The translations under genes were made by a program, and so were the position numbers. A stretch of 40,494 nucleotides of DNA from Parvularia atlantis (taxonomy: Eukaryota > Opisthokonta > Rotosphaerida): NCBI GenBank assembly GCA_943704415.1, contig CALSCO010002234.1:1-40494 (forward strand). Direction: 5' to 3'. The notes beneath the pieces are model-generated. The model saw nothing but the letters and a program-made list of their open reading frames with translations. It was not told where the DNA came from and did no database searches. Shown piece after piece: positions 18,853 to 33,817 of the stretch; positions within the stretch are counted from its first letter, which is position 1, and each line of letters opens with the position of its first letter.

Positions 18853-21800
18853 ATGGGCGCAGGCACAGCGAAACGCGGACGTGCGCCGCATGCCGTGCCG
18901 CACCAGCCGCACACCGCCGCGTCGCCACTGCTCGCGACGATGCTACTGCTGCTGTGCGCCGCGCCGGGCGGGCGTGCAGACGGTGCGCCGACGGGACAGT
19001 GGCGCCACGTCATCAAGGCTGCTCACGCCGCCGCAACCGCTTCCCCTAGGCTTCGTGGTCACGAGCAGCCTGCTCGACTTATCCGTCGGCGGCTTCCCGA
19101 CAACCTACCCGCCCAGCCTGTATTACGACAGCACAAGCAGCGTGCTCAATACAGCAAGCGATGCAGTACAGGAAGCACCAGTATATGGCGCCTTCCGTCA
19201 CAACACCAGCAATATCGCGTCCGTGCAAGGAGCAAAATCTCTGCAGGATACAGCTGTCTGCACAGCCTTTATTGTGCCGACATCTGGCACCACGCCGTTT
19301 GTGATTGGCATCGGTCCGACAATTGCAGAAACATGGGCAGGTGCGCATTGAGAACTTGTGCGCAGACATACCCAAACGAACGACGCCAGGATACAACTAC
19401 CTGCAAGACACCCCGCTTCCGTTCCTGCCCGTACGCTACAGCACTGCACCGACGCGCACAAAGGCCGCGTTTGCGTCGGTGCGCTGCATCGCAGGGTGGC
19501 GCGTCGTGTCTCACCTGCGTCGCAGAGCCGTCTGTTCGTCTGCGGGCTCAACGCCGCCAGCGCCGTCACGTCGCAGGGCACAACGACGTTCACCGCGCTG
19601 TTCTACGCGTCCGCAGTACGTTATGGTGTGCGCAGGTGCTGTGCCGCGTGGCTGAGTGCGTTCGCAGGTGAGCGCGGCCGGTGCGCTGAACACGACCTCG
19701 ATCCTGCTGGGCTCGCAGGCAGGCTCGACGCTCGGTTGCGTGTCGACGCTCGGTGCGATGCGCCGGGCCGTCGCAAGCACGCCCTGACTGCTGTACGCAG
19801 CTTGGGACAGCAGCACGAGCCGTCTGTGGGCCGCGCTGACGGTGCCGACGCCTGCGAGCGGCCCGGCAACGTTCCCGATCGTCTGGGTCAACGCGGCCGC
19901 TGCGAGCGCGTCCTTCGCCTCGGGGAGCTTCCCGTTCAACGGCACGGCAGTATGGGTGGTGCGCAGCGTACTCAAGACGCGTTTGACGGCATGCGGCTCA
20001 CGTGCGCGCGCTAGACGGATGAGTTCTCGGTCATCGCGGCGCACGGCGGCAAGGCGTTCATCACGATGCGCCTCGCCGTGCGCTGAAACCTTTTCCAGGT
20101 TCTCACGTGCTGACCGGCCGTGCGAGCGCAGGGCGGCACGGGCAGCAGCCGCGTAGTCGCGTGGTACAACGTCGCAGCGTTCACAGCAGGCGGTACGCTG
20201 CCCGTGGTCGACACGTTCGCATGGCTCGCGAACACGACGGACTACATGGGCGCGCTATACCTCGACGGCACGTCTGCTTTCGCGCGGTGGCGGTGGAGGT
20301 CGTGCTGAACGCGTGTATGCACAGGTCCGCGCAGCCGGCTGTTTGTGGGCCAGAGCTACGGCATCATTTCGGTGCTGGACGTCTCGCAGTCGTCGTTCCA
20401 GCTCATGCGCACGCTCAACCTGGCCGCAGCGGCGCCCGGAACGCTCAGGTGTGTGCGCTGCTTGTCGTTACCTGTGCACTGACACGTGCGAGCAGCGGTG
20501 ACGTCTACGCGATGACGGGCGACTCGGCGTCGATGCTGCTGTTTGCGCACGTGCGCAACGTCAACTTTGTCGTCGCGGGCAACAACCTCGAATACCTCGC
20601 GCGGTGCGCGGGCTTTGGCCGACGGCAGCCGCGGAGGACTGAGGTGGTGCTCCAGGGTCGGCATGGACGACTGCGCCTCGTACGGCAGCAGCTGCGCCGC
20701 GTGCGCCTCAGCCTCGACGTACTGCGGATACTGTGCATCGACGGCCTCATGCAGCCTCGTGACGTCGTGTTCGCCGGCGCAGCTGCTCTTCCAGGTGCGC
20801 TCGTGAACGTCGCAGCGCATCTGTCACGCTGACAAGCCGATGCGCACAGAGCCCGAGCAACCTGTGCCCGAGCGGAAGCGCGACGGCGAGCGTGTTTGTC
20901 TTTGGCACGTCGGCCTCGACGACCATCACGCTGACGGTCAACAGCTTTCCGCTCGCAGGTGAGACTAGCGCAGGCAGGCTTGCTTTTGCTCACGTGCTCG
21001 CTTGCGCAGGCGACGTCATCGCTGGCGCGTCGTACTCGTGCAGGTTCGCCCCGACGGCCAGCCCGCAGCAGGTCGCGGCGACCGGCAGTGCGACGCGGCT
21101 GTCATCGAGCCAGCTCTCGTGCGCCTTCACGCTCGGCGCCAACACGCTCGGCCTGGGCACGTCGACGCCGGTGCGCATCGCTGCGTCTTATCGCGCACCA
21201 GCCACTGCTGACCGCCCTCCAGGCCACGCTGACGGTGCTGCTCGGCACGGCCTCGTACTACACGATGCCGGCCACGCTGATCGACTGTACGGGCGGTGCG
21301 CCTTCTGCGTTGTGCAACAAAGACGAGCGCTGCTGACCCGCGCACACAGCGACCGGCTGCCTCGACTGCACTGCGCAGGCGTCGTGTGGCTGGTGCTCGA
21401 CCTCGCGCACGTGCCAGGCGACGCAGAACCCGAGCGCGTCGTGCGCCACGGGCTTTACCACGGCTGCGTCCGCCTGTGCCGCGCCGATCATCATGGGCGT
21501 CACGCCGAGCAGCGGGCCGATCGCCGGCGGCACGGTCGTGACCATCACTGGGCAGAATCTGCAGAGTGCGCGCCAAGTGCGACGGTCGCGTTGCCTTCTC
21601 ACACCGCTTTCGCGTAGCTGGCTTCACGAGCGTCTCGCTGGCTGGAACTTCATGCACGACGAGCGCGACGGCAAACAACACCGGTGCGCACGCAGTCCGA
21701 GCCAAGGTGAGCGAACTGAACGCAATGCGTCGTCTAGCGAGCACCATCACGTGCACGTCGGCGTCGCGCGTGTCTGGCAAGTCTGGCGCGGTCTCGGTCA

Positions 21801-24800
21801 CGTACACCGTCTTTGGCGCTGTCAGCGGCGCCAGCTACAAGTACGCGCCCAACCCGGCCGTCACGGGCGTCGCGCCGCAGTCGAGGTGCATGCACACGCG
21901 CTAGTGGCGCTTGCAGGGTTGTACTCACGCGCAGCACAGCGTCACTGCTGGCGGCGTGCTGCTGACCATCACGGGCACGAACCTCGCCTCGTCGACCGCC
22001 ACGCGTTTCCTGCTCGGCGGCGCGCTCCTGTGCGACGTGCAGACGCGCGGCGCCACATCGGCCACGTGTCTCACACGGTGCGGCGAACACGAGTGCACGT
22101 GCGCGGGCTGACACGCGTCACAGTGCGACCGCTGCGGGCACGAGCGGCACCGTCTCGGTCGCGATCGACAGCGCGTCGCAGGCCTCGGCCGTCAGCTTTG
22201 CCTTCGCCGCCAACCCGACCGTCTCGGGCTTCGTGATGCGTGCGGGCGGTGCGGCACGCAGCCCTCGCGCAGGCGGCGTGCCGCTGCAGGTGCTCGGCGC
22301 CAACTTTGCATCGTCGCTCGGTCCGGCCGCGACGATCAACGGCGTCTCGTGCGTGCGCGAGGTGTACGACAGCACGACGGTGCGCACGAAGAGGCCGGCG
22401 CTAGCGTGCCCTGACGGCTTCCTCTCAGCTCAACTGCACCACGGGCGCCACGGGCACGCTCGGCGCCTTCCCGGTGACCGTGACGATGGGCAGCGCTGTC
22501 GCCAGCTCGGTTGCGACCATTGCAGTCGTGGCCGACCCGGTCGTGACGTCCTTCGAGCCGTCAGTGCGTCGCTAGCTTGCGCTGACGAAGCGCGGCTTAC
22601 GCGAGCCGTCCCAGAACGGCAGCGCGGGCGTCACGCTCACGCTGCGTGGCACGGGTTTTGACGCCGGGCCGACGAGCAGCCTCAGCGTCGCCGTCGGAGG
22701 CCTCGCATGCCAGGTCGTGAGCGCCAACGCGACACAAATCGTGTGCCAGCTGCAGGGCGTCGTGTGCACGTCATGCACCGTGCCCGTCGTCCTCACGCTC
22801 TTTGCCGGTGCGCGGCTGTGCGTGCAGTGCGTGTGCTGACCAGTCGCATGCACAGCGACGTCGACCGCGCCAGGCCTGTTCACCTACATCACGCCGGGTG
22901 CGCTGGCTTGTGCACGTGCTGCCTCGCGGCTCATAACTTGCTCACGCGCAGTCACGAGCACCGCCACGTCGACCAACAGCGCCACAGCTTCTGCCACGGC
23001 TTCAGTCACGGCTTCAGCCACGGCCAGCGCGACGAAGACTGCGTCTGCAACGGCTAGTGCGACAGCTAGCGCGACAGCTAGTGCAACCGGCACTGCGACA
23101 GCTAGCGCGAGCGCGACTGCCAGCGCGACGGCTAGCGCAACAGCTAGTGCAACAGCCAGTGCAACAGCGACTGCGACGGACACGGCCAGTGCAACAGCCA
23201 GTGCAACGGCTAGTGCAACAGCCAGCACCACGGCCAGCGCAACGCCAGTGGCAAGCGCAACAGCCAGCGCGACGCCAGTGGCTAGTGCAACAGACGGAGC
23301 CGCAGCAACCAGCCTCGGCCCGACCGCCTCGCAAACCACTGCACCCGTGGCCGAAGCAACGACCGTTGTGGAAACGGCCACAGCTAGCGCGACCGCCAGT
23401 GCAACCGCGACGTCAACAGCGACTGAGACAGCAAGCGCAACCGCCAGTGCGACTAGCTCGGCGACGCAGACGTCAACCGCAAGCGCGACCGCGAGCGCGA
23501 CCCGCTCGGCGACCCGCACGGCGACCCGTTCCGCCACCAGCACCGCGACACGATCGGCTACCAGCAGTTTGACACGCTCTCAGACGGCCAGCGCAACGGC
23601 TAGTGCGACGGCTAGTGCGACGGCTAGTGCGACGAGAAGCGCGACGGCGAGCGCCAGTCGGACGGCAAGCCGGAGCACGACGGCGACTGCGACAGCGACC
23701 GCCACGCCGGCACCAGCCGTTCCGACAGCAGCGAGCATGACCACAACGTCGACGCCGACACCGACGCCAACAGGCCGCCCGGGCGCGGCAGGCGACGCGG
23801 GCGGCGTGAAGTGCGTCCCACATTGCGCGACCCAGCAGCTGCTGACACGATGACCCACTCAGCGCCAGCGAGCTCGCCATCGGTGTGTCTGTCGGCGTGG
23901 TCATCCTGAGCCTGTTTGTCTTCCTCGCCGCGCTCATCGTCTGTCGGCGCGCCTTCCTCGCGCCGCACATGAAGATCTCGTCGTTCATGATGAGCGGTGC
24001 GCTCTGCCTTGCCGTTGCCGGACGGCCCTGACCCGCTGCCCGGGGCGCAGACGTGCTGCACTCGCGCCGGTCGTCAAGCCTCCCCGCAGGCAGCAGCATG
24101 ATGCGGCAGACGACGCAGGCAGCGCTGGTGCCAGTGGACGCGGCATCGCTCGAGAGCGCTGGCGGCGACGCACCGACCATGACGCTGCTCAACACCGTGC
24201 TCGGTACGCCGTCCGTGCAATGCCTCGCCATGCAAAGACTGACACGGCCGCCCGCGCACCGCAGCGATCAGCTTGCCCGGGTACCTGCGCATGGAGCTGT
24301 CGCAGCTGAGCCTGGGCGCGACCGTGGCCTCGGGCGGCTCGGGCAGCATCCGGCGCGCGACCGTGAGCGACCCGGAGTGGCGTGCACGCAACCCGTTTGT
24401 CAGCGCCGTCGCGGTCAAGCTTGTGCGCGGCACGCGCTCGATGTCGGACGAGATCAACCTGGCCAACTTCCGCCAGGAGGTCGCGACAATGAAGTGCGCA
24501 GCCAGGGGTTTCCGCTGCCACGCAAACTCATGGCCCCGGCCGCGCACGCGCAGCGCGCTAGCGTTCCACCCAAACGTCGTGACACTGCTCGGCTACCTCG
24601 ACGAGCCGCGCGGCATCGTCACGGCGCTCTACGACGGCGACCTTTACAGCTACCTGCACGGGCACGGCGCGTTCCAGCAGCGGCCGGCGGCCTGGACCGT
24701 GCGCGCGGCGCTCGAGATCGCGCAGCAAGTCGCTTCGGCCGTCTACGGTGCGTCTGCGGGCTATGTGCGTGCATCAACCCTGACGGCGTCACCGGTGCCA

Positions 24801-25780
24801 GCCATGCACAGCCTCAGCATCGTCCACCGCGACGTCAAGACCAAGAACGTCCTGCTTGAGGCCATTCCGAACACACGCACGGTCTCCGGCTTCCCGTACA
24901 AGGTGCGACAGACTAGTCACGCTAGCGTTTCTTCTCGCATCGCTGACACGCGAGCAGGCCCGCGTATGCGACTTTGGTGCGTGCGAGCTCGCGCACGCCT
25001 GCTGCGGAGCCGCGCGCGACGTGCACTGACGGCTGAGCGTGCGCACGGTGCAGGCATCGCGCGGTTGGCGCAGCAGGAGCTCAGCCAAGACGTGAAGAAG
25101 ATGCAGTTTGTCAACATCTTTGGCCTGTCGGCGCGCTACGCCGCGCCCGAGGTCTTCTCGACCATGCGGGTGCGACACGGGCAACAGGCGCGTACTGCTG
25201 CGGCGTGCGGCTGACGACGACCGTGCATGGCAGCTCGCGAACCCGGTCGCGCTCGAAGCCGAGCTCGAGAAGAAGTGCGACGTGTTTGCGCTGTCTGTCT
25301 GGTGTGGCACAGACATACGGGGCCCGCACGGCAGAGCACGCGCAGCTCACATGCACACACGCACGCGCGCAGCCTGTGGGAAATGCTCACGCAGCAGGTG
25401 CCGTGGAGCCAGCTCTCGTTCGACGACGTCTACCGCAAGGTGCGTCTGTGTGCGACCTCGTCTGCCGCCGCTGACCTGCCGTGCCGCGCACAGGTCACCG
25501 CCGGCGAGCGCCCAACCATCCAAGACATCCGCGTGCTGCACGACGGCACGCTCGACGACGACATCACCAGCACCTTCCTCGAGCTCATCGTCAACGGCTG
25601 GCAGGTGCGGCGCGTCCAGTCGGCTGCAGCGGCCGTGTCTCACCAGCGGCTCGCGCGCCACAGCAAACCGCGGTCGACCGGCCCGACATGCGCGCTGTGC
25701 GCGAGCAGCTCGAGGCGCTCCTGCAGCGCCTGCGCGACGCCGACCCCGACCACACACTAGCCGAGCACGCTAGCGCATAG
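18853..25780 (+). CDS. Receptor TKL kinase with propeller-like, PSI and IPT/TIG ectodomain
   Basis: A single-pass cell-surface receptor kinase. The signal peptide core is SPLLATMLLLLCAAPGGR (~18925-18975). Next come blade-like segments up to ~20610 (RLFVCGLN, STSRLWAALTV, SRLFVGQSYGIISVLDVSQS), possibly a beta-propeller. A PSI domain (~20665-20800: CASYGSSCAACAS, YCGYC) is followed by an IPT-like unit, a second PSI (CLDCTAQASCGWCSTSRTC ~21360) and further IPT/TIG units (VTPSSGPIAGGTVVTITGQN ~21495; AGGVLLTITGTNL ~21950; AGGVPLQVLGANF ~22270; AGVTLTLRGTGF ~22630). A (ASAT)n stalk leads to the membrane helix AIGVSVGVVILSLFVFLAAL (~23878). The kinase has ASGGSGSI, VAVK, HRDVKTKNVLL, DFGIAR (across an intron), APE and a final DRPDMRAV. 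HRDxKxxN marks it as TKL, not a true tyrosine kinase. Introns are many, around 40-80 nt. Ectodomain exon joins are approximate. Confidence 0.85.
22950..23780 (+). repeat. Degenerate Ala-Ser-Ala-Thr coding repeat (receptor stalk)
   Basis: Roughly 270 codons dominated by Ala, Ser and Thr in a degenerate 12-bp unit, with GCTAGT or GCTAGC, GCGACG and GCAACA recurring. It encodes a mucin-like extracellular stalk just before the transmembrane helix and holds little else. The C-terminal part changes to Ser-Ala-Thr-Arg and then Thr-Pro repeats. Confidence 0.9.
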
Positions 25781-25836
25781 TTTGTCATATGCAACGAAGA
25801 ATGCTTGCCTGGCATGCCAGTTTGGACACACTCAGG

Positions 25837-28800
25837 CTACTCGGACACCAGCTCCTCGGCCTGCTGCTCGGCGCTGGCGGTTGGCGGCAGCGGCGGCTCG
25901 TCGCGCGGCTCGGCGATGCGGTGCAGCGCCGTCTCCCACAGGCCAATATCCGCGGCGGCGGCGGTCACCGGCACGTCGACGGCGTACTCGTTGCCCTCGG
26001 GTGTCGTCACCTGCAGTGCGGCTAGCATGAGCCGCGAAGACGCATGCGCGCTTGCACACGCACAAGCAGGTGGTAGTCGCCGGCCTGCGTGCTGCGCAGC
26101 ACGCGCATGATTCGCGCGTCCTTGAGGAACACGACCGTCGCGCTCGAGGTCAGGCGCGACGTGCCCTGCCAAGCCGCAACTGTCAGCGGCTAGCAGCATC
26201 TCTTTCGCGGCGCACCAGCGGGATGAGCACGAGCATGCCGCCGCCGACCGTGTCCGCGCTCTGGCCGTCGAGCAGCTGCCCGAGCGCGTGCTCCCACGCC
26301 GGCTGGAATAGCGGCTGCAGCCACGCGGTCGACGGCACGGCCATCTTGCGCACGAGCAGCTCGCCGGTCAGCAGTGGGCGCTGGTGGCACGTGCGATGTC
26401 AGGCCAACCAAGCGAGCACACGCACGCACCCGCGGCAGGTTTGGGTTGCTGTTGAACACCTTGCCGATGTCGTCGGTCTGGATGACGGTCGTGGTGTCGC
26501 GCAACGAGGCCAGCGCGATCCACACGTCGGCGAGGGCCGTCGACGTCTCGCTCGCGATACGCATCTCAATGCGGCGCATGCCGAGCATCCAGCTTGTGAC
26601 GTTCGAGCCCGTGAGGATCAGGTACAGCGACGCCATGATCGCCACGATCACGCCAAACGATCGCACGACAAACTGGACCTAGCGCCGCAGGTGAGACAAG
26701 CGGGCGAGAGGCGTGCGCACGGCGAGACGCACCACGAGGCTCGACTCGATCGCGTAGATGGTCGGCAGGACGGCGATGCACGCAAAACACACGACCGCGA
26801 GGAAGATGCGGATCGACGACAGCGGCTGGAACTGCCCGGGCATGCCGTACGCCGTCGCTGTCGCGAGCACGAGCAGCGCGCCGTTGAAGGCGTACATGAG
26901 CGCCGTGAAGACGCTCTGCGCGACGGCCGAGCGCGACGAGCACGAGAGGTAGTACGCGCCGGGCCCGCCAAACGTCGTCGCGCTCGGCAGGTCCACGCCG
27001 AGCCAGACGACAGCGATCGTCTGCGCTGGCATTCAGCGACCTGACGTGCTAGCCGCAAACCGTGCGCACCAGCTCAATCAGCGTGATAACGAGCGGCCGC
27101 ACCCACGCGCGCCGCTGCGGCCGCTGCTGCTTCGCGACCTTGATGTTGCGGCCGACCTCGTCCAGGTCGACGAGCTTGGTCCACACGGCACTAGCGCCGT
27201 CGGCCATCCATGTGAGACCAGCGTCGTCACGCAAGACGCAAGCGCGCGTACCTGAGGAGGAGCCCAAAGGCGACGGGCGGCACAATGACCTGCAGTGCGC
27301 ACTGCACCGCGCTGGGCACGCCGATGTAGAGCACGACCGTCGTCAGCCCGAGCATGCACGCCCACAGCGCCGACTTGACGTAGGCGATCGTCGTGAGGTT
27401 GACCAGCAGCTCCTCGCGCTCGGCCATGACCGGGCGCCACCACACGCTCGTGACCATCACCGTCAGGGTCTGCGGCCGCCGCACAGTCAGCGCGCGTGGC
27501 ACGGCTTGGCGGCGGCGCACCAGGAACAGCAGGCCGGCCGTGATCGCGAGCGCGACGATGGACGCGATCGAGTACCACTCGACGACGTAGCGAGGCGCGG
27601 GCACAATCGCGACGGCGGCGAACCACGTGCCGAGCGGGTACGCAGTCAGCAGCGCAGCCTGTGCGGCGGCTGAGCACGCGTTGCCATGGGCCAGCGCACG
27701 GCACCTGCACGGCCTCGAGCTGCTCGACCGTCAGGTACGCCGAGCCGGACGCGGCCTGTGCGACGAACGTATAGATGACCTGCTCTGCGCGCCGGGCACC
27801 GGGCAGCGGCGCGAGCGCCAGGAACACGACGTTGACGTCGAGCGGCGCGAGCACCGCCTGCAGCTGCGCGGTGACGTTGTTGCGAAAGGCGCTCGTTGTT
27901 GCGCCGTCGTCGAACGTCAGCGTGACCTCGTCATACTCGCGCTCGCGCAGCTCGCAGCCCACGCCGACAAAGCCCGCGGCGCACTCGCACGTGTCCTCGC
28001 GCGCGCACACGCCCTGGCCGGCCGCGCAGCCGAGCGGGCACGTCTGCTGCACGCACGGTGCGAGCCCCGACACGCCCGAAAACGGGCATGCGTCCACGAC
28101 GACCGCGATCGACGCCGACGCCAGCGCTGCGCTGCTGCCGCTCGCCACGGCCGCAGGGCCGACCGTGAGGGCAAAGGTGACGTTGTACGTGCCCGGCTCG
28201 GCGAGCACGGCGATCTGCGGCGACGCCTGAGAACTAGACTGGTTGCGCGGCAACGGCACGCACGTTGGTGAAGGCCGCCACGCCGAGCGCAAACACCTGC
28301 GTGAGCGCGCCGCCCTGCAGCACCGCGTTCGAGCCGCCGCTCACGCGTGTGATGGTCACGGCAAGCGCGACCGACGTGCCGTCGTTGAAGGGCTGGTTGA
28401 GCGCGTCGCGCAGCCCGAACGTGACGTCCGGTAGCGTCTGGCCCGACTTGACGCGCACGGGCTGCTGCGGTGTCGCACTGGTGCGCACGACGCGCGCGAG
28501 CGGGCTGAAGATGTCCTGCTGCGCCACGGCCGCACTGGCGACGTTGCGCGCGAACGTGTTGCTCGGCAGCAGCGACGAAGGGTACCCCGCCGCCGACGTG
28601 ACCCAGACGGCGCCGCCGATCTGCGCCGTGTTGTCTGCCGATGCGCGTCCACGGTCAGCGCAGAGCTGTGTGAGAGGCCATGCGCACCGCTGAGCGTGCA
28701 GCCGGTTGCGTCGAGGTTGGTGCCGTTGCGGATGAAGGCGCGCACGGCACCGCCGTTGCCGCCCGCAGTGTTTTGTGCGAGCAGCGAGCCGCTGAGCGTC

Positions 28801-31800
28801 AGCGTCACGCCCTGGTTGAACGACAGCTCAGCCAGGGCGATGGCGCCGCCGCTGCCGCCCGCCGTGTTGCGTTCGAGCGACGCGTCAACGACAGACACCT
28901 GCGCGCGCCCGGTCGCGTAGACCGCGCCGCCGTCGCCCTCGCTTGCGCAGTTGCTGATGCTCGCACCCGACAGCAGCTCGAGCATGCCCTGCCGGTCGAC
29001 GTACACCGCGCCGCCTGCGATCGCCTGAGCATCTTGCACGGTCGTACCGTCGCTGAGCACGAGCCGGCCCGAGTCGGTCACGTAGGCAAAGCCGCCGTAG
29101 CCACCGGCGCTGGCATGGCTGGTAAACTCGACGGTCACGCCCACGAGCTCGACCTCGGCCGTTCGCGCGACGACGAGCACGCCGCCGAAGGTCGTGCCCA
29201 GCGCGTTCACGGCGACGTTGTCGGCGAACAGTGTGCTGTTGAAGACGATGCTGCTGCGAGCCGGCGTCGCCAGCGCGGCAACGGCAGCGCCAGCGGTCGC
29301 ACGGTTGCCGCTGATCTCGCCGCCGACAAAGCTCAGCACGAGATCGCGCGACGACTGGGAAAGGCACTCGCATCAGACGCAGCGATAAGGCACAGCGATA
29401 AGGCACACGCACGTCTGCCTCGACGGCGACGCCGCCGCCGCGCGCCAGGCTGCCCAGCGCGCTATTGTTGGCCAGGAGCACGTTAGTGAAGTAGACCTTG
29501 TGCACGCGCGCACTAGCGTCAGCCTACGCTGTGTCCGCTCGCTGGTTGCACGCACCTGCCCGTCCAGCACGCGCAGTGCCGCGCCGTTGTCGCTGTACGA
29601 CACGCAGTCGGTCACGCTCGAGTCTGTCAGCGACAGCACGCCCGCGTTGACGATGATCGCGCTAGCGCGTGTGACGTCAGCCCAGCGCGCTAGCGTGCAT
29701 CACAAGTGCGCACCCGCTCGAGCCCGTGCAGCCCTGCATCGTCACGCGCGTGCCCGTGACGCTCGCGCCGCTGACCAACAGCGCCGAGGCCGTCGACGCG
29801 AACGTGGACGCAATCGCGCCTGACACCATCACGTCCTCCAACGTCGCCGTCGCGCCGCTCAGCGTCAGCACCGGCTCGCTCAGGCCCACGTTGGCGTCGA
29901 AGACCACGTCGTGTAACGTCACGACCGAGTCGAACCCTGGTGGCGCGCACGTCAACTGCAGCAAGCGCGCGTGCCTGCAGTCGCACACCTTCGCCGCGCA
30001 AGATGCTGTTCATGCCGTTGTTGCCGCTGATCGTGCAGCCGTCCACAACGAGCTCGCCGCCCAGCTCGGCGACCAGCAGCGACGCCGAGCCCAGGTTGCC
30101 TAGCAGCTGCCGTTGTGCGGTATCAGCAGTCGCAGTGACGGCAGGTGACGCGCACCGTGCTCGACGTGAGCGTGATCTGCGCGCCGCCAATCGCGCGCAG
30201 CCCGCCGTTCGAGTTGACGAAAAACTGGTTGCCGGTGAGCTGCAGGCTGTCCACCACCAGCACGCTCGTCGCCTGCTCGGCCAGCAGCAGTGTCTGCCGA
30301 ATCGCGTTGCCACTGATTGTGAGACCGTTGAGCGCGCCGTACGTGTCGACCTGTGCCGCGTGTGAGACATGCGTCGAGCGTGAGCTGTCCACGCACGAGG
30401 TGCATCAGCGTGGGCGCCTGGTTGCCAGAGACGGTCGACGCCGTCATTGCAAGTCTGCGGCGGCAAGTTAGTGCCCACTTCACTGGCAGCGAGCAGCACG
30501 CACTCGACGCCTGACGTGCTGATCAGCACGCCAGTAAGCGCCGCAGCCGCGTTGCCCGTGATCGTCACGCCGCTCAGCGTCGCCTTGGCGTTCGACACGC
30601 TGAAGACCGCGCCGCCGTTGTTGTTCGTGAACGTTGTGTTTGTCACGTCGAGCGACTCAAGCAAGCCCCCGTACGCCTGAACGCCTTGCATCCGCACAAG
30701 TGATTGCACACTAGCGCGAAACGTGCAAATCAGCATCAGCAGCAACTGGCTTTGCGTACGCACTTGTTGTTGCTAAACGTGCAGCTGCTGATCGATACGG
30801 CAGAGTAGCCAGCGTAGATAACTGAGCCAGTGCCGTTGCCGTTGGAAGCAAAGGCCGTGGTTGAACAAGAGACACTTGGCAAGAAGTTTACGAAGTCTCC
30901 GTCCAAATGCAAGGTGCTTGCATCGCTGCTTGTTGCTGCCACGTTATTTGCGAACGTTCCAGCGTCGATCACCATGGAGCATCGCCTAGCCACACATTGT
31001 CTGTTGCCGCATAGGTTTTATCAGCAAGGTCGACACGATTTTGGCGTACCTGTAGATAGCACAGCCCGCTTGCAATGCAAAGTTTTTGACAAACGAAGAC
31101 GACGTTTGTGAGATCGACCATTCGTAAATGGGACCCTGGGAGCTGGTAGACCTTAAGGAAGAGATTGCACCTATACGGCTGTGAGCGGACAGCCGTGCGG
31201 GCTATTGGTGTCGCACCACCGTTGACGGCCGTGTTGCTGTCAAAGCTGCTCGCGGTGAACGACGCTTGCAGCTGTACGGTGCAGACAACGATGCCGTAGC
31301 AGGCCGACTGGCTGTCCAGGAACACCGCACCGCCGTGTCCGCGCGCGTTGTTGCCGATGAAGGTCGTGTTCTGCGCGTCCTGTGAGCCATCACGCCGTGC
31401 AGTTGATCGCCAGCGCACCTCGAACGTGAACGACGTGCTGGTGTAGTAGAGCTTGAGGGCGACGCACACCGCGCCGCCGTAGCCGTTCGGGTCGGTCTGC
31501 GGTGCGCATGAGTTGTGCAACACGAGCGTGCGAAGGTGTACCATCTGGTTATTGGAGAAGGTCGAGTTGCGCACGAGGACGCCCGCGTTGAACGTGTTGC
31601 TGTTGCTGAGCGTGCGCTGCGACAGCGGGAACGAGTCCTGCGCGCGATTGCTGTGAGTGCCGATCGAGCACTGCAAGGGCGCGCCGCAACGCACAAAGTA
31701 GACCGCGCCGCCGCTGCCAAAGTTGAAGTTGGCGTCGAAGGTGCAGGCTTCGATGGCAAAGGCGCCGCCGCCGTAGACCGTGTAGACGTAGAGCGCGCCG

Positions 31801-33545
31801 CCGGGCTGCGGCGTCGTGTTGTCCAGCGCGGCCGAGTTGTTGCGGAAGACGCAGCCGCTGACCGTGACGGGCACTGTGCGCGGCGGCGCGGGCTCTGTCA
31901 GTGGATGACGTGCGCGGCGGGCTGCGTTGCGCGACGCACCGCCGATGAAGAGCAGCGCCATCGCGCCGCCGCTCAGGCCGCTGCGGCTGTTGACGAAGCT
32001 CGAGTCGGTGATGCTCAGTGTGCCTGCGGGTGCGCCGTTTGTCACGCGAGGCAGGAAGCGGTAGGACGGCCCTGCGCGCACCAGCGACGTTGGTGATGTA
32101 GACCGCGCCGCCCGTGCCGCGCGCCTTGCTGCTGTCAAACGTGCAGCGGTCGACGACGATCGCTGAGCGAGTGGGGGGGCCACGTGAGCATGCCGCAAAA
32201 CGGCGACGATGGTCGGACGCACGGCCGGCGATGGCGTAGAGCAGGAGTGCGCCGCCGTTGGCGTCGCCCGCGACCTCATTGCCGACAAAGTACGAGTCTG
32301 TGATCGTCACGGCGCCTGCGAGCGAGGCGGCGTCACCGCGTTGGGCAGTGCGCGACAGGCGGACCGCGAACCGCCGGTAAAGGCCACAGCGATGGCGCCG
32401 CCCCCGTGCGTCTGCATGCCGGGCGCGGGCGCGGCGATCGAGCGGCCATTGCCGGTGAACGTGCAGTCGTCGACGAGCAGCGTGAAGGCGTCGGCGGTGC
32501 TGAGCGGGAGCGCGAGCATGACGGGCGTGGGCGTCGCGCTGGCCACGGTCACATCGGCGGCACGTGCGACCACGCCGCCTGCGCGCTACACACGTTTCTG
32601 TCAGCACACGAGTGTCGCTGAGCCGGCGAGCACGCACCGCGGCGTCGTTCCGCGAAAACGTGCACCCGGTGAACGTGACGCTTGAGCTGCCCGCGCCAAA
32701 GACGACGCCGCCTGCGCGCCGCTCCGTGTCAGCGCATGCCGCGCGTGCAAAAGCGAGCATGCCGTAGTAGGCGCGGTTGCTCTCGAAGACGCTCGCGTGC
32801 GCCGTGAAGGTGGCCGTGCCGTCGAGCTTGGCGACGCTGCCGAACACGTCGACGTCGAGCGCGCCGTTGCCGGTGAAGGTGCAGTCGTCGATGTCGATGG
32901 CGACCGTGTCGGTCGCGACGAAGATCTGCCGGTTGCCCGTGAACGTCGCCGCGTCGGCCTCGATTGTAGCGTTGCCGCTCGCTTCGACCATGAGCCCGTT
33001 GTTTTCAAAGTGCACGTTGCTGCACGTGTGCGCATGCGGTGAGCAAGCGGTAGACGCGCGGGTGCATGACGTGGCGCACATGAAGACGAGGCGCGCGTTG
33101 CCCTCCATCTCGAACACGGGCGCGCCCGACGTGCAGTTCACGAGCACAATGTCCTTGAGTGTCAGCAGGCTGTCGTCCTGCGGCGCGCTCAGCTGAGCAC
33201 GCGGTCGGCGGCTGAAACAGGGGCCTGCGCGCACGATGATGCGGAAGGCGGGCACGGCGGCCGCGGTCGGGTCGCACGACAGGACGGCGCGCCGGCCGAG
33301 CGCCGGGTTCGGAAAGACGATGTACTCCTCGTCGCCGCTGACGAGCAGCGTACCGAACGAGCCGAGAGAGGCGTCGTCGTTCTGCCGTGCGTGTGTGTGT
33401 GTGTGTGTGTGTGTGAGCTGTTGTTGGGCGCGCCCGAGCCGAACGGCGTGCGCACGTCGAGGATGATGTCGACCGAGTTGGCTGCAGCAAGCGTGGCCGT
33501 CACCAGCAGCAGCGCGCACGCTAGCCGCGCCAGCCGCGATGCCAT
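25837..33545 (-). CDS. PMP beta-helix / EGF / class C GPCR chimera
   Basis: A very large cell-surface protein. The signal peptide is MASRLARLACALLLVTATLA (from 33545). About 33350-28600 is a beta-helix of PMP (polymorphic outer membrane protein) repeats with FxxN/GGA(I/V) signatures: CTFTGNGALDV, NNARGHGGAVFLDS, GNGGAVRAF, GDGGAVYATGRAQV, GGSGGAIALAEL. An Ig-like stretch follows (LRDALNQPFNDGTSVAL ~28390), then an EGF-like unit (CPLGCAAGQGVCAREDTC and ECAAGFVGVGCE ~27980). Seven membrane helices occupy ~27600-26600, including YSIASIVALAITAGLLFLV (TM1), AQSVFTALMYAFNGALLVLA (TM5), IRIFLAVVCFACIAVLP (TM6) and VVRSFGVIVAIMASLYLIL (TM7). TM5-6 resemble GABA-B-type 7TM_3 receptors. The cytoplasmic tail continues ~26560-25837 without a domain I recognise. 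There are many short introns; intron 1 holds a (CA)n tract. Confidence 0.82.
33387..33414 (-). repeat. (GT)n/(CA)n tract in intron 1 of the PMP-GPCR gene
   Basis: On the sense strand the intron opens GTGCGCACG after ...VDIILD, runs through a CA tract and ends GCACGGCAG before NDDASLGSFG. The plus strand shows the GT version. Confidence 0.85.
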
Positions 33546-33817
33546 CCTGTGCGCGTGCGCGTGCGTGGCGCCGTTAGCTTGATTAGCGCGGAACGCTAGC
33601 GGGAGCCACGTCTTTGACTGCATTCTCAGACGCGCAGCAAGCATGGTCGGTGGCGTGCGGCGCGCTCGCCAAGTTGCTGACGCCGCCGCACCGCCCGCAC
33701 CGCCGCGCCGCCCTACCGCCCTGCCGGTTGTCGCGTTGCGCTTACGCGTCGCCTGTGCTGCTCGCTGCCCGACACGACCCGGCTGCGCTGCGCGTGTGTC
33801 GCCAGTCCGGGCAACTG
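33546..33817. other. Divergent intergenic region, ~272 bp
   Basis: Lies between the PMP-GPCR start (minus) and elongin B start (plus). No clear motif or exon was identified. It is one of only two divergent gaps here wide enough for conventional promoters. Confidence 0.5.

Follow-up and report, generated by a model that had tools for sequence, protein, structure and literature searches.

Sequence analysis supports the conclusion that one spliced gene model of the rotosphaerid Parvularia atlantis joins a long beta-helix ectodomain, with repeats like those of polymorphic membrane proteins (PMPs), to a class C seven-transmembrane (7TM) domain, and that it does so with no match to a Venus-flytrap domain. 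The gene, hereafter the receptor gene, lies on the minus strand of contig CALSCO010002234.1 (GenBank assembly GCA_943704415.1), and our analysis was based on a window of 40,494 nucleotides from that contig with a GC content of ∼70%. The architecture that supports a receptor interpretation is the presence of both Pfam families Beta_helix and 7tm_3 in one predicted spliced protein. A preliminary description of the same DNA had read it as a class C G protein-coupled receptor (GPCR) that uses an adhesin-like beta-helix as its sensor; the joining of a PMP-like beta-helix to a flytrap-less class C 7TM domain stood, the likeness to GABA-B receptors did not, and the sensing role is a matter of interpretation. 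We consider it reasonably probable that the gene encodes a class C (glutamate-family) GPCR with an EGF-bearing stalk and a beta-helix rod that senses polymers or surface ligands and signals through G proteins.

Assignment of the membrane half to class C is based on profile and alignment evidence. Pfam 7tm_3 (cut-off, 33.5 bits) matched the full spliced protein at 57.8 bits (E = 1.7e-15) and the transmembrane (TM) part alone at 63.4 bits (E = 3.3e-17; profile positions 2 to 247 of 251), so that the seven-helix domain indeed matches a GPCR class, as first proposed. This match is unlikely to be a mere effect of hydrophobicity, because a multipass TLC-domain protein gave no 7tm_3 match in the same Pfam search. 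Retention of a 51-base intron (27520-27470) lowered the match to 56.3 bits (profile 47-247) and is less likely. Hydropathy alone revealed peaks for seven helices, TM2 being a split peak, and two more hydrophobic peaks before TM1 (residues 1353-1371 and 1410-1428) that we read as ectodomain. The TM3 Cys and Lys align with those of mGlu3, and a Cys is present in the second extracellular loop (ECL2), three columns off in the same alignment. The proposed resemblance of TM5-6 to GABA-B receptors was not confirmed: the only PDB sequence matched at E ≤ 10 was mGlu3, in a search that included no direct comparison with GABA-B.

The ectodomain lacks a recognizable class C ligand-binding module. Papers are cited here by PubMed Central identifier. 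Neither a flytrap, a Cache, nor a nine-cysteine (NCD3G) family was among the five Pfam families returned for the full protein at E ≤ 1 or among matches of the TM and stalk parts, in agreement with the earlier statement that no flytrap is visible. Searched at E ≤ 10, the TM-side part of the protein matched no ligand domain, Cache or otherwise, above cut-off, and no ectodomain part outside the beta-helix reaches the >400 residues given for the ANF domain in the available text of PMC5168858. A missing flytrap does not exclude class C membership, because mGlyR and the class C GPRC5 receptors (PMC11187071) also lack one; NCD3G is likewise absent in GABA-B (PMC12716839) and in nonmetazoan class C members (PMC3251606).

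Motif counts and profile searches both point to a PMP-like beta-helix. In 1,158 residues we counted 19 GG[AVF]-hydrophobic motifs and 19 FxxN motifs, compared with means of 1.44 (maximum, 6) and 3.48 (maximum, 10), respectively, in 2,000 shuffles. Pfam Beta_helix (cut-off, 25.9 bits) matched the full spliced protein in five stretches (85.3 bits; E = 4.7e-24). When three pieces of the ectodomain, which together omit exons 20 to 22, were scored, two lay above this cut-off (48.1 and 45.4 bits) and one below (22.7 bits). Chlam_PMP (PF02415; cut-off, 20.6 bits) gave 17.6 bits with the full protein and 20.8, 29.8, and 23.7 bits with the three pieces, the 20.8-bit piece containing no single stretch above the cut-off by itself. 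The PMP repeats of the preliminary description, GGA(I/V) and FxxN, are therefore upheld by counts beyond those of shuffled sequence, while the Chlam_PMP profile is mixed, failing on the full protein and passing on the pieces. Three consecutive beta-helix exons (32315-31940, minus strand; 93, 81, and 84 nucleotides) have phase 1 at both ends and encode 27 to 31 residues each, as expected if coils arose by exon duplication.

Structure prediction of the ectodomain, which the preliminary description had proposed as a check, was run on the beta-helix segment 28688-29354: the AlphaFold single-sequence model consists of strands and loops and lacks helices of four residues or longer (predicted local distance difference test [pLDDT], 59.7; predicted template modeling score, 0.68). 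Foldseek returned 177 PDB matches to this model at E ≤ 10, with low query-normalized template modeling scores (0.12 to 0.45). Many of the best 50 of the 177 were AlgG, antigen 43, pectate lyases, and P22 tailspike, which we take to be beta-helix folds; proteins that are not beta-helices, SV2A and an ABC transporter, were also among the matches listed. These matches are weakly compatible with a beta-helix fold. An NCBIfam search with the ectodomain alone gave a single match, creatininase (E = 0.071), and a pattern search confirmed no relatives in viral contigs (5 matches) or in contigs of prokaryote-only genomes (21 matches).

Two splice models place both halves in one gene. The first was seeded with open stretches of the receptor locus itself and trained iteratively on the window; run on the whole window, it collapsed each strand into a single gene and was uninformative on borders. 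Run on 25830-33560, it gave a gene of 1,872 amino acids in 34 exon rows, of which one had zero length, with borders (33545-25837) that were nearly given because of the region chosen; with introns limited to ≤140 bases and the region shortened by the last base of the stop codon, the gene ended at 26007 (1,808 amino acids). For the second model, codon usage and splice weights were learned from 1,882 codons and 42 introns in five other stretches of the window, where exon positions followed the first model; background was counted over the whole window. Applied to 25600-33800, it returned the same start and stop in three of five settings, with 1,913 amino acids in 32 exon rows, one of which had zero length, and 26 of these 32 rows were identical to those of the first model. 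An intron of the first model at 29039-28989 was rejected, because this segment encodes a GGAVY motif and is exonic in the second model. Separately, the first model contains a possible GC-AG intron (32762-32712, minus strand) where the second has exon.

The border between the PMP and TM regions was unbroken in all five settings of the second model, and the locus was a single gene in three of them. Removal of the gene penalty with a normal intron penalty produced one break, near 32.5 kb, and its removal with a harsh intron penalty produced four genes, with one break (27227/27207) inside the 7TM region. According to the first model, the final PMP coil shares exon 25 with the beginning of the Ig-like stretch, the remainder of that stretch lies in exon 26 together with the EGF and juxtamembrane parts, and exon 27 holds the end of the juxtamembrane part and TM1. 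These exons cross the domain borders as we read them, so that a split at the PMP/TM border would cut through a unit. Eight exons from 29354 to 26430 amount to 852 codons without a stop, and GC content is 0.66 to 0.74 in 250-base bins over 27001-28750. On the strength of the border left unbroken in every second-model setting, we rejected a two-gene model. A trivial explanation could also be bacterial contamination, which we rejected because short introns are dense in both halves and the neighboring genes are eukaryotic; the same argument from introns had been made in the preliminary description and is borne out.

A beta-helix on a class C receptor is not a new design, because receptors of this kind have already been described in gut fungi (PMC5168858; Seppala et al. 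2016). Of the 51, 24, and 32 class C GPCRs of three gut fungi, ∼30% have a pectin-lyase fold instead of ANF; parallel beta-helix repeats accompany it in some and an EGF-like domain in a few, and the authors called them putative carbohydrate-binding receptors (PMC5168858). Like the receptor described here, these proteins of Neocallimastix, Anaeromyces, and Piromyces combine a 7TM domain with a right-handed beta-helix-type ectodomain; some have N termini of >1,000 amino acids, with neither ANF nor a nine-cysteine domain (PMC5168858). The preliminary description had called the design unusual; as to the PMP-like repeats, the words "polymorphic" and "PMP" are absent from the available main text of PMC5168858. 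Compared by description and not by sequence, the Parvularia receptor would differ from its gut-fungal counterparts in its PMP repeats and a GC content of ∼70%, and these are the new points. Gut-fungal genomes are AT-rich.

Other known systems share some of these features. With the metazoan class C receptors (mGlu, CaS, T1R, and GABA-B), the protein has in common 7tm_3 and the TM3 and ECL2 cysteines but not the flytrap or nine-cysteine domain, neither of which was matched here. The receptors mGlyR/GPR158 and GPR179 are likewise class C 7TM proteins in which an EGF-like unit accompanies an ectodomain other than a flytrap; theirs is a Cache domain, and the one described here is a beta-helix. Chlamydial PMPs (PF02415) are bacterial autotransporters with the same GGA(I/V) and FxxN repeats, whereas the present gene is eukaryotic, bears introns, encodes a 7TM domain, and has the mixed Chlam_PMP score given above. 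Adhesion (class B2) GPCRs resemble it in their very long modular ectodomain, an EGF-like unit, and the contact sensing proposed here; unlike them, it has 7tm_3 in place of 7tm_2, and neither 7tm_2 nor GAIN/GPS was among the five Pfam families returned. A literature search that covered few subscription papers found nothing linking class C GPCRs or 7tm_3 to polymorphic (outer) membrane proteins. A 2025 choanoflagellate survey reports diverse ectodomains in nonmetazoan receptors, and its available main text contains no occurrence of "beta-helix," "beta helix," or "Venus flytrap" (PMC12716839). Parallel beta-helix repeats appear among the abbreviations of a social-amoeba survey, the available passages of which do not state the GPCR family that carries them (PMC10445921), and cellulose-binding beta-helix proteins that are not receptors are described from a rumen fungus (PMC6712302).

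We propose a mechanism for the polymer- or surface-sensing receptor. The long PMP-like rod would stand on the cell surface and bind a polymeric or surface-bound ligand, such as a glycan or a protein on the surface of prey, bacteria, or neighboring cells. Binding or pull would change the arrangement of the stalk and 7TM domain, and the 7TM bundle would then activate a heterotrimeric G protein; the whole would amount to an adhesion-type receptor working on a class C core. The gut-fungal receptors, as a precedent for the architecture, count in favor of this reading. If correct, this proposal would place beta-helix class C receptors outside the gut fungi as well and connect them with PMP-like repeats, known best from bacterial adhesins. 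It would be consistent with the published view that nonmetazoan class C ectodomains vary widely and would offer a class C receptor in which contact or glycan sensing can be put to the test.

Several observations weigh against this interpretation. Both splice models forbid in-frame stops by construction, so that an open frame across the whole model is by itself weak evidence. No Foldseek match of the beta-helix piece to the PDB reached E = 0.001 or better. Similarity of the 7TM part to solved structures is limited to the mGlu3 match, which is weak (E = 0.054) and begins at TM2, and topology is not certain, because the ectodomain-assigned peak at 1410-1428 (mean, 1.70) exceeds TM2 (1.56). The class C TM7 motif FxPKxY was not found by eye. 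The mGlu3 alignment has no acidic residue at the start of TM6, the presumed position of the lock partner; the class C ionic lock is Lys3.50-Glu6.35 (PMC11187071), and we placed its positions in this receptor by hand. Finally, neither splice model nor a frame check gives a clean continuous frame in 31216-30822. GC content is 0.52 in 30751-31250 and 0.61 to 0.74 in the remaining 250-base bins of the receptor gene, most of the stretch is skipped by both models, and it holds pieces resembling beta-helix coils in different frames. Possible causes are an assembly error, unusual exons, and damage; the PMP/TM border lies outside it.

The likelihoods that we attach to the different explanations are separate judgments and overlap slightly. 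A narrower version, which we advance tentatively, is that the protein is a contact-sensing class C GPCR whose PMP-like beta-helix serves as an adhesin for prey or neighbor surfaces and relays binding or pull by way of the EGF-bearing stalk to the 7TM bundle, in which case adhesion-type signaling would have arisen separately from the adhesion GPCRs and also beyond gut fungi. Held to be just as tentative is the explanation that the beta-helix is solely an adhesive or spacer rod and that sensing of a small ligand falls to the juxtamembrane segment or the 7TM bundle, much as it falls to the Cache domain in mGlyR. Consistent with this, mGlyR and GPR179 carry their Cache domain on top of an EGF-like domain (PMC12716839), and a helix-strand-strand-helix arrangement is predicted just before TM1; the segment has a pLDDT of only 42.9, however, and the search at E ≤ 10 described above gave no Cache or ligand domain above the Pfam cut-off.

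It is rather improbable that the gene is a degenerate or nonsignaling copy, either a 7TM surface adhesin uncoupled from G proteins or a pseudogene. The partly missing lock and TM7 residues and the stretch at 31216-30822 would fit such a copy, but elsewhere in the locus both splice models find long open exons and regular short introns, and the mGlu motif set is incomplete in GABA-B receptors as well. Least probable is that an unrelated PMP surface protein and a class C 7TM gene lie side by side or were joined in assembly. In favor of this are the breaks that appear when gene starts are free and, at 31.2 to 30.8 kb, the drop in GC content where the frame is unclear; against it stand the three single-gene settings, the unbroken PMP/TM border, the domain-spanning exons 25 to 27, and the GC content of 0.66 to 0.74 over 27001-28750.

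Features of the receptor locus and of the adjacent gene (positions in the window)
Feature	Positions	Strand	Description	Evidence
Whole receptor gene, start to stop codon	33545-25837	minus	31-33 exons, 1,872-1,913 amino acids	Two splice models
Putative signal peptide	33480-33545	minus	Hydrophobic N terminus, ∼22 amino acids	By eye only
PMP-like right-handed beta-helix ectodomain	28506-33192	minus	∼1,070 amino acids, ∼22 exons	Pfam, motif counts, AlphaFold piece
Stretch without continuous reading frame	30822-31216	minus	Inside beta-helix, GC ∼0.52	Both splice models, GC/frame scan
Putative Ig-like stretch	28096-28505	minus	Holds intron 28263-28215	By eye
EGF-like unit	27950-28091	minus	Six cysteines	Subthreshold matches, cysteine positions
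Juxtamembrane segment before TM1	27577-27949	minus	∼100 residues, alpha/beta	Low-confidence exon 26 model
Class C 7TM domain	26613-27576	minus		Pfam 7tm_3, hydropathy, mGlu3 alignment
C-terminal tail	25837-26612	minus	∼200 amino acids, no recognized domain	Pfam and PDB sequence searches
TIG/kinase gene model	19333-25780	plus	Convergent with receptor gene	Pfam

Between the beta-helix and TM1, the preliminary description had placed an Ig-like stretch and an EGF-like unit. The former has no Pfam match and was not confirmed. The latter is retained for its six cysteines in EGF-like order, with matches that are subthreshold (EGF_TEN in Pfam, E = 0.0024; WIF-1 EGF, E = 0.027), every Pfam EGF model falling below its cut-off. 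The helix-strand-strand-helix of the juxtamembrane segment is possibly ferredoxin- or SEA-like, with no family above the Pfam cut-off. For the tail, the one subthreshold Pfam match (T7SS_EccA1_N, E = 0.0088) is probably due to chance, and no PDB sequence was matched at E ≤ 10; a PH-like fold, considered by eye, was rejected as unsupported by either search.

Scans of the whole window against Rfam and for tRNA genes gave no hits. The genes that neighbor the receptor gene fit a eukaryote. Upstream of it, on the minus strand, are predicted the TLC-domain protein, a CSN8/PSMD8/EIF3K protein, and a protein with three RRM stretches. In the convergent gene model, four IPT/TIG stretches were matched (E = 4.9e-32), and it also has a hydrophobic segment; HRD and DFG motifs are visible in its kinase domain (PK_Tyr_Ser-Thr, E = 1.2e-24). 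Between its TIG and kinase parts lie tandem repeats (23046-23654) of 12-base units and their multiples or relatives.

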